From the NCBI GenBank assembly GCA_022226935.1, contig CP092081.1, positions 2,876,181-2,940,180 of the forward strand: a stretch of DNA of 64,000 nucleotides. Reading direction: 5' to 3'. Both the position numbers and the translations under genes were made by a program. Below the pieces are notes generated by a model. That model was not told the DNA's origin, did no database searches, and saw nothing but the letters and a program-made list of their open reading frames with translations. Below are positions 32,955 through 38,058 of the stretch, one piece after another. Position 1 is the first letter of the stretch; the number at the start of each line of letters is the position of its first letter. Origin of the DNA: Nitrospira sp. GTDB lineage: Bacteria; Nitrospirota; Nitrospiria; Nitrospirales; Nitrospiraceae.

Positions 32955-33494
32955 CTAACGACCGCCGGTTTTTGATCCCTTTGCCCCGCCGCTGGATTTC
33001 GTTGTCTTTCGCTCCATGGCCAACGGCGGTGCGAACCAATTGTGGCGGGTACGTTTATGCCGTTCCTGGACCGCCAGCACCGCATGGAACGGCAGGCCAT
33101 TGCCGGTCGCATCGTCGGATTCTTTGAGGCTCCACGCTTCACCCGCTTCGCTCAGAATTTCGACGAAGGTTTCAAAGTCGTCTTCTTCGTCGGGTTTCGT
33201 CAGGACCTGGTCGGCATCCGTGACGACGACGAGGTAGCCTTTGGCCGGCAGCCAGTCGAGGTCGGCGAGACATTCTTCCAGGGCATCCCAGTTGTGGCCG
33301 AAATAGTCGGGAAAGGAGAAGACTCGGCTGAATTCATCCAGAAGCCCGGCTTTGGTTTTACATTTTTTCCCAGAGATGGTTTTGGTGACAAACTGGGCGG
33401 GGACCGACAGCAGCTTATCCAGCGCCTCTCCCTCGGGATGCACCAAGAGATGGGCCCATGGTTTCTTGATCGATTGAAGCGCGGTAATCGACAT
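32955..33494 (-). CDS. Barstar-family ribonuclease inhibitor
   Basis: A 179-residue cytoplasmic protein with a central barstar fold: TISGKKCKTKAGLLDEFSRV, FSFPDYFGHNWDALEECLAD and LVVVTDADQVL. FPDYFGHNWDAL is the family's best-known motif. Barstars bind and block barnase-type RNases; the immediately upstream gene encodes such an enzyme with a 6-bp gap. The protein is longer than barstar (about 90 residues), with N-terminal and basic C-terminal extensions (KTTKSSGGAKGSK). Confidence 0.85.
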   Translation of the reverse strand: MSITALQSIKKPWAHLLVHPEGEALDKLLSVPAQFVTKTISGKKCKTKAGLLDEFSRVFSFPDYFGHNWDALEECLADLDWLPAKGYLVVVTDADQVLTKPDEEDDFETFVEILSEAGEAWSLKESDDATGNGLPFHAVLAVQERHKRTRHNWFAPPLAMERKTTKSSGGAKGSKTGGR

Positions 33495-34055: not shown

Positions 34056-36395
34056 TCACACGCGGTCGTGCTGCAGCTCCGCGACGTGCATCCGCGTAAA
34101 CAATTCCCAATCGAACGGCTTGGGCGACACGGCGTGAAGCGGAATCGTTTCGATCCGGTTTGAATCGTGATAGGCCACCATGCAGCCGACGATGGTGTCC
34201 GGTTGTTCAACGAGCCGGCGCACCGTTTCATAGGCGAGATGTTGCGCGATCATTTTATCTTCCGGAGTGGGGGGTGCGCCTCTCAGGGTATGGCCAAGAA
34301 TCGTAGCCTTCGTGGCCGAGGCCAGCGAGTACGGGCCCGTTGCTTCACGACGCTGGGGCCACGTGGCAATCGTCTGCGCGACATAATCGACCAGCCCGTG
34401 AACACCACCTTCCCGGTGATGCCGGTGAGGAGTCCGTTCCGCCACCACAAAGATATGGCTTTTGTTCGGCACCCCCAACGTGCGTTGTAACGTGCCCAGG
34501 ACAATGTCTTCGATATAGGTATCCGGATCGGGATGCTCATTGACCAGGATTCCTTCCGCTCTGGCTTGGTAGGCGCAAGCCAAGGCCAGGTGGCCTGACC
34601 CGGCACCCATCACCTCGACGAAAAAGATGCTGCCCATGGCGGCACTGGTGGCTTTCAGTGATTCAATGGATTGATTCGCGAGGGCGATCGCTGAATGAAA
34701 TCCCAGCGAGGTGGTGCCGGCGATATTGTTGTCGATGGTGCCAGGGATGCCGACCACTTGCACGCCATAGGTCTCGTGGATCGCCCGCGCGCCGCGCAAG
34801 CTGCCGTCTCCTCCCAAGACCACGAGCGCCGAGTCTTCGAGATAGGGGGCGAGGGAGCGCATGGCGGCCCGTTGCACCTGCTCGTCTTTGAAATCCTCGA
34901 ACCGGCTGCTGCCGATGGGGCTGCTGGCATGGCTGCTCATGCCGCGCGTATCCTCCTCGGTGACGGCGTCGATCCAATTGTTGGCCAGACCGAGAAATCC
35001 ATGGCGGACAAACAAGACGTCCAGGCCGAAGCGGTTGCCGGTGACCCGCAACTCCTTCAAGGCCGCCCCGCCGCCGCCGAAATCTCCGCCCGACACTAAG
35101 GCGATCAGTCGTTTGATGCGCCCGGGCTTGAGCGTGACGCGCTGACTGCGCTCCCGTTCGACTGTGACCCAGGCCTCGCGCGCGACCCGGTCGCTTTCAA
35201 TCAGCCCTACCGCGGTCGAATAGCCGGAGAGTTTGCCGTTCTCCAAGGTGAGGAGCACGACATTGTCCTGCCCTTCCTTGTATTCACCGAATTCCGAAAA
35301 CGCTTCGCGGAAGGGGCGCGGGTCGAGATAGATCCGGAGCGCGCGCAGCGTCGAGCTGTGTGTATAGAGACACAAGACTTCGCCCGGGTGGGATCGGCCA
35401 AGCCGGTGGAGACCGTCGATGACATCGACGTAGAGATCAAAGAATGAATGCCCGCCGGGATAGCTGTAGAACGGATGCTTGATCAGCCGTTTGGCGGTCT
35501 TCGCGTCCACCCCGAACGCGTGTGCCGCTGCGTCGAGTTCCGCCTGTTTCTCCATGCCGGTGACCCAGCCGAAATCCTGCGATTCCAAGGTCGGTTCAAT
35601 GTGGGGATGCACCGCATCCGCCCGGTCGGGCAGCAACGCCTTCGTGATGCGCCGGCAGAGTTGCTCCGTATTCGGGCTGTGACTGATGAGGTGAAGAAAT
35701 GTCCGCGGATCGAGATAATTGCGCAATTGCAGATAGCCCAATTGCTGGCCGACCACTCCCACCATGCGAGCCAGCGCGGCGCCCACGGCTTCGGCTCTTG
35801 GGACACCCCGCTCGGTATCCAACACATTCGCCAGTCGCCGGCCCACACGATAGGTTTTGCTTTCGACTTCGGAGACACCGTGCCGCATGGTGAGGAACAG
35901 CGTGCGGTCGCCGAGATCGCGTGGAAGCAACCAGAAACGATCATCCCCCAGATCCAGCACGATACGGCCTTCGGCCAGCTGCGGAGTCAATTGCGTCCGG
36001 GGCACGATGGCAACCGGGCGGCGGTGCGCCGGTTTTTGGGTCGCGCCGATCGGCGCTCGATACAAGGGCGAGAGTTCTCCGCGGGCGAGCAATAGGTTCC
36101 ACGCGGCGAAGAATACCAGGGGGTCATTCCCGCAGGCGTTGGCGAGCAGTTCTTGCCGCGCGGCGCGATAGGCCTCGGCGCTGGGTAGGCCCTTCTGAAC
36201 CTGCTGAATGAATGCTCGCATCGCGTCGGCCGCCGCTTGCGTGTGCTGCAGCCGGTCGGACGAAGGCGGGGGCGGAGGCGGTAACACGTACCTGCCGCTT
36301 GATGAACGTTGCGCGAGGGCTTCTCCGTAAGCCAGCAGGCCCTCCATCGTGACAAAGTCCAGCTGCTCCGTTGCTTGCTTGTCCGATGCGCTCAT
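34056..36395 (-). CDS. Fusion: histidine-phosphatase-like domain + phosphofructokinase
   Basis: A 779-residue two-domain protein. Residues 165-395 look like a histidine phosphatase: MRHG at 170-173, SYPGGHSFFDLYVDVIDGL at 311-329 and YTHSSTLRALRIYLDP at 344-359, close to the bisphosphatase of PFK-2/FBPase-2, but the usual Glu of PxGESxxDL is His316. Residues 428-779 are ATP-PFK-like: VSGGDFGGGGAA, VLGGDGSLRGA, PGTIDNNIAGTTSLGFHSA and VEVMGAGSGH. Asp555 matches the catalytic base, but the next acidic residue is Asn557, and the Arg after VEVMG is Ala. The N-terminal 160 residues include a proline run and are of unknown fold. It diverges from pyruvate kinase. Confidence 0.82.
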   Translation of the reverse strand: MSASDKQATEQLDFVTMEGLLAYGEALAQRSSSGRYVLPPPPPPSSDRLQHTQAAADAMRAFIQQVQKGLPSAEAYRAARQELLANACGNDPLVFFAAWNLLLARGELSPLYRAPIGATQKPAHRRPVAIVPRTQLTPQLAEGRIVLDLGDDRFWLLPRDLGDRTLFLTMRHGVSEVESKTYRVGRRLANVLDTERGVPRAEAVGAALARMVGVVGQQLGYLQLRNYLDPRTFLHLISHSPNTEQLCRRITKALLPDRADAVHPHIEPTLESQDFGWVTGMEKQAELDAAAHAFGVDAKTAKRLIKHPFYSYPGGHSFFDLYVDVIDGLHRLGRSHPGEVLCLYTHSSTLRALRIYLDPRPFREAFSEFGEYKEGQDNVVLLTLENGKLSGYSTAVGLIESDRVAREAWVTVERERSQRVTLKPGRIKRLIALVSGGDFGGGGAALKELRVTGNRFGLDVLFVRHGFLGLANNWIDAVTEEDTRGMSSHASSPIGSSRFEDFKDEQVQRAAMRSLAPYLEDSALVVLGGDGSLRGARAIHETYGVQVVGIPGTIDNNIAGTTSLGFHSAIALANQSIESLKATSAAMGSIFFVEVMGAGSGHLALACAYQARAEGILVNEHPDPDTYIEDIVLGTLQRTLGVPNKSHIFVVAERTPHRHHREGGVHGLVDYVAQTIATWPQRREATGPYSLASATKATILGHTLRGAPPTPEDKMIAQHLAYETVRRLVEQPDTIVGCMVAYHDSNRIETIPLHAVSPKPFDWELFTRMHVAELQHDRV

Positions 36396-36606
36396 GAATC
36401 GCCTCGTGCTATGTGACTTCGGAAGAATTATTTCATGAGTCCGGCTTCGACGTTCTCCCGGACGCCATGCAGATGTTCTTTTGCGGCATGCGGACCGGTT
36501 TGTTAGAATGACCCGTTGCCGACCGAATCAGGGATGCGTCGAGCCTCACCGCATACGTACAAGATGGTGTGCCGGGCCGATCTTGTCAAGACAGAAGAAC
36601 AGCAGC

Positions 36607-38058
36607 ATGCGAAAAGCGAAAATCGTCTGTACCATCGGTCCTGCGAGCGATGGCATAGGCGTGCTTGAGCAACTCATCCGGCGCGGCATGAATGCGGCGC
36701 GGCTGAATTTTTCCCATGGGACGCATGCCTCCCACGGTCAGGCCATCAAGGTCATTCGCGAGGCCGCTGGCCGTCAGGGCGCAGCAGTGGCGATCATTCA
36801 GGACCTGCAGGGGCCGCGCATTCGCGTCGGAGAGATCGACGGAACAGTGGAACTGCGCGTCGGCCAACGCGTGCGGTTGCGGACGATGACCTTGCGATCC
36901 GGCGGACAGATCGGCGCCAGGAAGGTCATACCCGCCGACAGCGCGCAAGACATACCCGTGACCTATCAAGCCCTGACTAGGGACATTCGGCCGGGGGCCA
37001 AAATACTGATCGACGACGGCCTCGTGGAATTGACGGCTGATCGCATCGTCGACGGTGCGGTGGAATGCACGGTGGTGGCGGGCGGGCGGGTCACGTCCCA
37101 TAAGGGCATGAACCTCCCAGGCACGGTCGTGAGTGCGCCCACGTTGACGGACAAAGACCGTGAGGACGTACGATTTGGTGTCGCGCAGGGCGTCGATTAT
37201 ATCGCCCTCTCTTTTGTGCGCGGCGCAGAAGACATCATCGCGGCCAAACGGCTGATCGCCGAGTGCGGCGGGGACGTACCGGTGATCGCGAAAATCGAGC
37301 GGCAGGAGGCGGTGACCGATTTAGACGCCATCCTGCAGCAAGCGGACGGGGTGATGGTCGCGCGGGGAGATTTGGGCGTCGAATTGGGACCGGAAGCTGT
37401 GCCGGTGTTGCAGAAGCGCATTATCGCCACCGCGAATCGCCATCGACGGCTGGTCATCACCGCCACGCAAATGTTGGAATCGATGACACAGCATCTGCGG
37501 CCGACCAGAGCGGAAGCCTCGGATGTGGCCAATGCTGTGTTCGACGGCACCGATGCCGTGATGTTGTCCGCAGAAACGGCCGTCGGGCACTATCCGGTGG
37601 AGGTCGTGCAGGTGATGGATCGGATCGTACGGGCGGCGGAGGTCGAAACGGGGCCGGGATTTGTCCGGCGGGCGTCGCCGGATAACCGGCGTCTGACGTT
37701 TGAAGAGGCGATCTGTTTGTCCGCCTCCTCCGCGGCCGCCGCGACCGGTGCCACGGCTATTGTGGCGTTCAGCGAGCGTGGTACGACGGCCCGGCTGGTC
37801 TCGAAACAACGTCCGGCTGCGCCGATCATCGGCTTCACTCCGTTTGAACCGGTCCGCCGGCAGATGGCCCTCTACTGGGGTGTGATGCCGCACACCATGC
37901 CGCAGATTTCGACGACTGATGAGCGAGTCAACGAGGCTGAGCGACGATTGAAGGCCGAAGGTCTTGCGACGGCAGGGCAACGCATTGTCATCCTCTCCGG
38001 GACGAGAGTCGGTCAGCCGGGCGGAACGAATCTCATGAAACTGCACGAGGTCGGTTAG
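36607..38058 (+). CDS. pyk: Pyruvate kinase
   Basis: Converts phosphoenolpyruvate and ADP to pyruvate and ATP. Motifs: RKAKIVCTIGPAS, NAARLNFSHG, QDLQGPRIRVG, the active-site IAKIERQEAV with its catalytic Lys, and GDLGVELGPEAVP. ITATQMLESM and NAVFDGTDAVMLSAETA follow. ATG 36607 gives 483 residues and the standard N-terminus; the frame is open upstream to 36481 but that part is unrelated. It starts 211 bp from the divergent phosphofructokinase fusion and is followed within 5 bp by a secreted protein gene. Confidence 0.95.
   Translation: MRKAKIVCTIGPASDGIGVLEQLIRRGMNAARLNFSHGTHASHGQAIKVIREAAGRQGAAVAIIQDLQGPRIRVGEIDGTVELRVGQRVRLRTMTLRSGGQIGARKVIPADSAQDIPVTYQALTRDIRPGAKILIDDGLVELTADRIVDGAVECTVVAGGRVTSHKGMNLPGTVVSAPTLTDKDREDVRFGVAQGVDYIALSFVRGAEDIIAAKRLIAECGGDVPVIAKIERQEAVTDLDAILQQADGVMVARGDLGVELGPEAVPVLQKRIIATANRHRRLVITATQMLESMTQHLRPTRAEASDVANAVFDGTDAVMLSAETAVGHYPVEVVQVMDRIVRAAEVETGPGFVRRASPDNRRLTFEEAICLSASSAAAATGATAIVAFSERGTTARLVSKQRPAAPIIGFTPFEPVRRQMALYWGVMPHTMPQISTTDERVNEAERRLKAEGLATAGQRIVILSGTRVGQPGGTNLMKLHEVG

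Follow-up and report, generated by a model that had tools for sequence, protein, structure and literature searches.

We describe a protein of Nitrospira in which a domain with the fold of the histidine phosphatases is joined, within one chain, to a C-terminal phosphofructokinase (PFK). Our leading interpretation, to which we give somewhat less than an even chance, is that this fusion is an ATP-dependent catabolic PFK in which the classical allostery has been replaced by a sensor domain derived from a phosphatase. Both domains are remodelled, not decayed, and this domain arrangement has long been established in the class Nitrospiria.

PFK is a textbook control point of glycolysis, and Nitrospira are the dominant nitrite oxidisers, including the comammox bacteria. 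Genome papers judge glycolysis by the presence or absence of PFK (PMC9239080). The fusion is an obvious candidate for the poorly known switch in Nitrospira between carbon fixation and gluconeogenesis on one side and glycolytic use of organic carbon on the other. Its unusual active sites, fixed throughout the class, and its usual adjacency to pyruvate kinase suggest a control of glycolysis that is probably of an undescribed kind.

Methods

The window is the whole stretch of DNA analysed, 64,000 nucleotides in length (contig CP092081.1, positions 2,876,181 to 2,940,180); the coordinates of the fusion and its neighbours are positions in the window. The phosphatase domain was aligned with GpmA and YtjC of Escherichia coli and with two canonical members of its family encoded in the same genome. 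The kinase domain was compared with E. coli PfkA (32% identity) and 18 other PFKs, using E. coli residue numbering. Residue conservation was counted over 63 distinct fusion sequences. A first model of the fusion was obtained with AlphaFold, using an alignment of 30 sequences.

Results

The fusion gene (34056-36395, minus strand) is a single uninterrupted ORF with an ATG start, encoding 779 amino acids, in a genome made up of a single contig of 4,229,538 bases. A truncation, a frameshift or a chance ORF was ruled out by 63 distinct full-length homologues. The protein begins with a helical region (residues 5-121; 36033-36383, minus strand), which is its least conserved part, with 16% of the columns invariant. 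It is followed by a histidine-phosphatase fold of branch 1 (about residues 160-396, with about 164-395 encoded at 35211-35906, minus strand), in which the background invariance is 39% of columns, and by a PFK-A kinase domain (residues 424-772; 34080-35126, minus strand). The Pfam family PF00365 matched residues 431-726 with 193 bits (cut-off 30.9), which places the protein in the PFK-A superfamily, and the kinase domain aligned with 1pfk_A with a Z of 23.1 (VIA-align). The NCBIfam equivalog for ATP-dependent PFK-A, TIGR02482, gave 175.3 bits, below its cut-off of 371.35. No Pfam match to the 6PF2K P-loop kinase was found in the fusion, the C-terminal kinase being of the PF00365 type. His_Phos_1 (PF00300) matched the whole protein weakly (20.6 bits against a cut-off of 21.7) and the phosphatase domain scanned alone with 24.6 bits, above the cut-off; scanned as a domain, it was found with E<=1 in 30 of 30 aligned relatives.

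In the AlphaFold model the N-terminal and phosphatase parts were usable, except for the first residues, and the kinase active site was poor, with a pLDDT below 50 over most of residues 554-613. Residues 164-395 of this model aligned with PhoE (1ebb) with a Z of 16.1 (VIA-align). A second model, covering residues 5-400, had a pLDDT of 88.5 and a pTM of 0.90; it aligned with 1ebb over 196 residues (Z 16.3, rmsd 2.7, VIA), and Foldseek matched it to Rv2419c, TIGAR, PFKFB, PhoE and PGM. As modelled, the N-terminal half of the fusion contains a branch-1 histidine-phosphatase fold. The absence of such a fold, considered in the original prediction as a possible refutation, is excluded by the PhoE and Foldseek matches, and the predicted joining of a phosphatase-like domain to a PFK is real, with an intact ORF and both folds confirmed. 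All the motifs on which it was based are present in the ORF: MRHG at residues 170-173, PGGHSFFDL within YPGGHSFFDL at 312-321, YTHSSTLRAL at 344-353, TIDNN within PGTIDNN at 551-557 and VEVMGAG at 593-599.

The RHG motif and the C-terminal His of the branch-1 superfamily are present in all 63 fusions. Arg171, His172 and Gly173 (35877-35885, minus strand), with His172 at the phosphorylatable position, are invariant, and so are the second active-site His, His346 (35358-35360, minus strand), the Ser347, Ser348 and Arg351 that follow it, and Asp274. The second Arg of the phosphate pocket is missing: the aligned position, 239, is variable, and the motif SxxxRAxxT is replaced by S-P-N-T at residues 240-243 (35667-35678, minus strand), in which Pro, Asn and Thr are invariant and Ser is found in 62 of 63 sequences. 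The Glu of the L-x-E motif of histidine phosphatases aligns with Ser272 (35580-35582, minus strand), again invariant, so that the general-acid Glu/Asp appears to be lacking, as judged from the alignment. Of the five residues that a branch-1 phosphatase site should contain, two have been substituted throughout the class, namely the second Arg and the general-acid Glu. In addition, the SHG of canonical phosphatases reads THS. The original prediction had noted His316 (35448-35450, minus strand) where Glu is usual. This substitution, in the GES motif, is real, with His in 49 and Asn in 14 of the 63 fusions (GES to GHS or GNS); the position is not the one aligned with the general acid, which is that of Ser272.

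In the kinase domain, D103, G104, R72, D127, E222, H249 and R252 are kept. The donor motif GGDGSLRG (residues 528-535, containing D103, G104 and G108; 34791-34814, minus strand) is of the ATP type, according to a scheme in which GGDGSxxG stands for ATP, GGDGSxxI for ADP and GGDD for PPi (PMC11609450). GGDGSxxG and Asp555 are invariant in the relatives of the fusion, one Ser to Thr change aside, and the predicted donor is therefore ATP. PPi, as a case of the other phosphoryl donor considered earlier, was ruled out by GGDG and by PGTIDNN, which has PG and not PK, the PPi-PFK signature GG(D/E)D with PKTIDxD being absent from the fusion; the presence of a separate PPi-type PFK in the genome also speaks against it. 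Within PGTIDNN (34725-34745, minus strand), Asp555 corresponds to D127, the general base of PFKs (PMC12203962), and Asn557 represents D129N. This change belongs to a fixed set with R162S (Ser589; 34629-34631, minus strand; Ser, or Thr in a few, in all relatives), R171A (Ala598; 34602-34604, minus strand) and R243K (Lys696; 34308-34310, minus strand). Hence D129, R162 and R243, which serve F6P and Mg in ATP-dependent PFK-A, are Asn, Ser or Thr, and Lys in all fusions examined. Asn557, Ala598 and Lys696 are invariant in 63/63 fusions and, as a set, absent from the 18 control PFKs. The substitutions in TIDNN and VEVMGAG noted earlier are accordingly borne out in 63 distinct relatives; this invariance, and the restriction of residue 316 to His or Asn, speak against sequencing errors or chance. 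R162S and R243K in the kinase, and the lost second Arg and Ser272 for Glu in the phosphatase domain, go beyond the original prediction.

R162 and R243 are the two neighbouring-subunit arginines that bind the 6-phosphate of F6P. With both of them changed and D129 replaced by Asn, F6P kinase activity is not guaranteed, and the change of both arginines leaves room for another sugar as acceptor, as had been suggested. Arg162 of the neighbouring subunit holds the phosphate of F6P in the R state (PMC12203962), and D129 binds Mg or NH4 (PMC10339645). PPi-PFKs in which R162 is replaced by Met, Tyr or Cys still use F6P, and also S7P (PMC10339645). R171A by itself means little, since R171S in E. coli is mild, lowering kcat by about 75% with a negligible change in Km (PMC11808435); R171A was also found in one canonical-type control PFK. 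From its sequence, the fusion kinase is predicted to accept F6P or a near relative with altered affinity. The fusions have other residues in place of R21, R25, R54 and K213 of the effector site, R21 and R25 in particular being retained in the closest class-level canonical PFKs, and the textbook control by ADP and PEP is therefore probably absent.

The fusion was found in 28 of the 29 genomes of the genus; the complete genome that lacks it (G004) retains a PPi-PFK and one pyruvate kinase. It is spread through the families of the class Nitrospiria at one copy per genome, the 63 distinct sequences being 63-97% identical, and the relative on the chromosome of Candidatus Nitrospira defluvii shows 91% identity. 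A search of 198 Nitrospirota genomes with the alignment of the N-terminal and phosphatase parts resulted in one match in each of 41 genomes, all of them fused, in open frames of 764-887 amino acids. Neither an unfused module nor a match outside the class Nitrospiria was found in these 198 genomes. The module was not found in the plasmids searched, and no relative of it was confirmed in viral contigs. Among the 80 of 113 confirmed loci listed in a contig search, all had titles of the Nitrospira, Nitrospirae or Nitrospirota type, including one mistitled Nitrosospira, except for one labelled Nitrospinota, probably because of a taxonomic label issue.

In a tree with canonical PFKs the fusion kinases form one clade with a support of 100/100. 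Its stem has about 6 changes per column and its inner branches fewer than 0.3, which suggests a single burst of change followed by strict constraint. The attachment of the clade among the canonical PFKs has a support of 44/39, with long branches.

As originally predicted, the fusion lies next to a pyruvate kinase gene (PF00224), which is divergently transcribed (36481-38058, plus strand, as the longest ORF); because the PF00224 match starts only at residue 43, the true start is probably further downstream. Of about 88 context loci, 58-59 contain a pyruvate kinase, which is the immediate neighbour in 54 of 88; the loci are mutually related and the counts not independent. The 54 adjacent pairs are divergent (40), tandem (12) or convergent (2), and the median gap over all pairs is 134 bases. 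In about a third of the loci, from several lineages, there is no pyruvate kinase within the stretch examined. In one family (f1) the neighbour is of a single pyruvate kinase type throughout. Another family (f2), and a few relatives without a family placement, have a different, non-orthologous enzyme in this place (tree split 100/100), whose orthologues in f1 are located elsewhere, including a second copy in the genome of the window. Rearrangement with proximity kept, together with two unlike partners, indicates that fusion and pyruvate kinase are functionally linked. The pfk and pyk genes of Lactococcus belong to one operon (PMC1890298). The two pyruvate kinases of the window's genome are about 37% identical, the second being located at 3625647-3626612 (L183). 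On the contig labelled Nitrospinota (L124), the fusion is 70% identical and a pyruvate kinase of the f2 type lies about 2.4 kb away. Also beside the fusion is a guanyl ribonuclease gene (PF00545; 33501-33962, minus strand) directly followed by a barstar inhibitor gene (32955-33494, minus strand), a pair whose synteny is kept throughout the genus and extends to several further lineages of the family.

The other PFK of the window's genome (L002, 603706-604668) is of the PPi type, with the motifs GGDD and PKTIDND, and is accompanied by a class I fructose bisphosphatase (FBPase) separate from the fusion; GlpX and FBPase_3 were not found in this genome. Class I FBPase is present in 123 of the 126 class genomes sampled, which rules out the fusion as the organism's sole FBPase and, together with the replacement of two of the five phosphatase residues, weakens the earlier proposal of a cycle-forming switch. 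Most genomes with the fusion encode a further PFK, either a PPi-PFK or a canonical ATP-PFK, and the role of glycolytic PFK does not necessarily fall to the fusion. It is the sole PF00365 protein in 14 of the 78 fusion-bearing genomes of this sample, some of them closed or nearly closed, a count that covers PF00365 proteins only and not PfkB-type kinases. A link to glycogen use was set aside as uninformative, since phosphorylase-family genes are found in 104 of 126 genomes, with and without the fusion. The small genomes of genus g13, of the same order, lack PFK, pyruvate kinase and phosphorylase genes and keep FBPase.

Discussion

We propose that the fusion would be a Nitrospiria-specific member of PFK-A operating in the glycolytic direction. 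Its kinase would bind ATP and, with Asp555 as the general base, phosphorylate F6P or a closely related sugar phosphate. The classical bacterial control, consisting of the R/T switch of Arg162 and the Arg-rich effector site for ADP and PEP, would have been dismantled. It would be replaced by the module made of the N-terminal helical region and the histidine-phosphatase fold, the pocket of which is rebuilt yet strictly conserved. The proposed sensor role of the module rests on this conservation. Its ligand would probably be a phosphometabolite, whose binding may involve transient phosphorylation of His172 or very slow hydrolysis, and it would switch the kinase so that glycolysis is kept from opposing the gluconeogenesis of these autotrophs. 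The self-controlled glycolytic enzyme imagined at the outset is plausible. A more specific version, in which the phosphatase domain is an allosteric sensor or a phosphohistidine switch of a PFK-1-type kinase, class-wide, previously undescribed and linked to pyruvate kinase, is possible and can be advanced only hesitantly. The same hesitation applies to the view that bacteria have in this way arrived, by convergence, at a counterpart of PFKFB regulation within PFK itself.

The invariance of both catalytic His residues and of the RHG Arg would also suit a bifunctional kinase/phosphatase using Glu271, Asp274 or His316 as a non-standard acid, which we regard as unlikely; its target, an equally unlikely proposition, would be the phosphate added by the kinase or a signalling bisphosphate. 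Arg351 falls, in the alignment, on the final Arg of SHQAVMR in PFKFB, and the fold relatives include TIGAR, PFKFB and Rv2419c. Loss of the Glu does not prove inactivity, since the proton donor is Ala in MINPP and the Glu to Ala change E991A makes yeast Vip1 more active (PMC11836120). However, the second Arg is lost as well, an invariant Ser occupies the Glu position, and nearly every genome has a dedicated FBPase. The four kinase changes, fixed together, could instead reflect a pocket rebuilt (R162S, R243K, D129N) for another acceptor, to which we assign a low probability; S7P, tagatose-6-P, a larger phosphosugar or a non-phosphorylated sugar would be the candidates, with no better prospects. 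The S7P-accepting PPi-PFKs with R162 replaced, and the coexistence of other PFKs with the fusion, are in line with this, but H249, R252 and E222 are kept, F6P use is compatible with R162 replacements, and a glycolytic PFK is favoured by the pyruvate kinase linkage and by the genomes in which no other PF00365 protein accompanies the fusion.

The departures in both active sites and the persistent adjacency might also suggest a double pseudoenzyme that senses ATP as well as sugar phosphates and acts as a regulator of pyruvate kinase or of some other partner. We find this improbable: the entire class has preserved D127, D103 and the ATP motif, which is unusual for a dead kinase, and 14 genomes would be left without a PF00365 PFK, PfkB-type kinases not counted. 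Least credible, and very improbable in our opinion, is an ordinary PFK with a tolerated fusion and neutral substitutions. The mildness of R171S and the R171A of a control PFK agree with it, but not the invariance of N557, A598 and K696 as a set foreign to the control PFKs, nor a long stem followed by constraint.

A review of the PFK superfamily mentions yeast and tandem fusions and no histidine-phosphatase fusion, and expects further domain fusions from new structures (PMC12203962). Our literature search, which did not reach subscription papers, found no paper joining PFK, histidine phosphatase and Nitrospira. An ATP-dependent PFK controlled by a phosphatase-derived sensor, as we favour, would have several partial parallels. 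With E. coli PfkA (PFK-A, EC 2.7.1.11) the fusion shares the PF00365 fold, 32% identity, GGDGSxxG and the residues D103, D127, R72, E222, H249 and R252; it differs by D129N, R162S, R171A and R243K, by the changed effector-site arginines and by an N-terminal extension of about 425 residues. Branch-1 phosphatases (PhoE/YhfR, the Hydrogenobacter phosphoserine phosphatase, Rv2419c, TIGAR and dPGM) agree with the fusion in fold (Z 15-16), in RHG and in the last His, whereas the fusion has replacements for the second Arg and the general-acid Glu, reads GHS or GNS for GES and carries an attached kinase. Enlargement of PFK by fusion is also known from eukaryotic and yeast PFK-1, with duplicated halves and, in yeast, a glyoxalase-like N-terminal domain (PMC12203962); here, the added domain has a histidine-phosphatase fold. 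PPIP5K/Vip1 likewise combines a kinase and a histidine phosphatase with a replaced proton donor in one chain (PMC11836120), but its kinase is unrelated, its phosphatase belongs to branch 2 and its substrates are inositol pyrophosphates. Eukaryotic PFKFB (6-phosphofructo-2-kinase/fructose-2,6-bisphosphatase), finally, likewise has its kinase and its histidine phosphatase on a single chain and shares with the fusion the motifs YPGG(E/H)S and (S/T)H....R..L. In the fusion, by contrast, the domain order is reversed, phosphatase catalytic residues are missing, and the kinase is a PFK-A (PFK-1) and not a P-loop 6PF2K.
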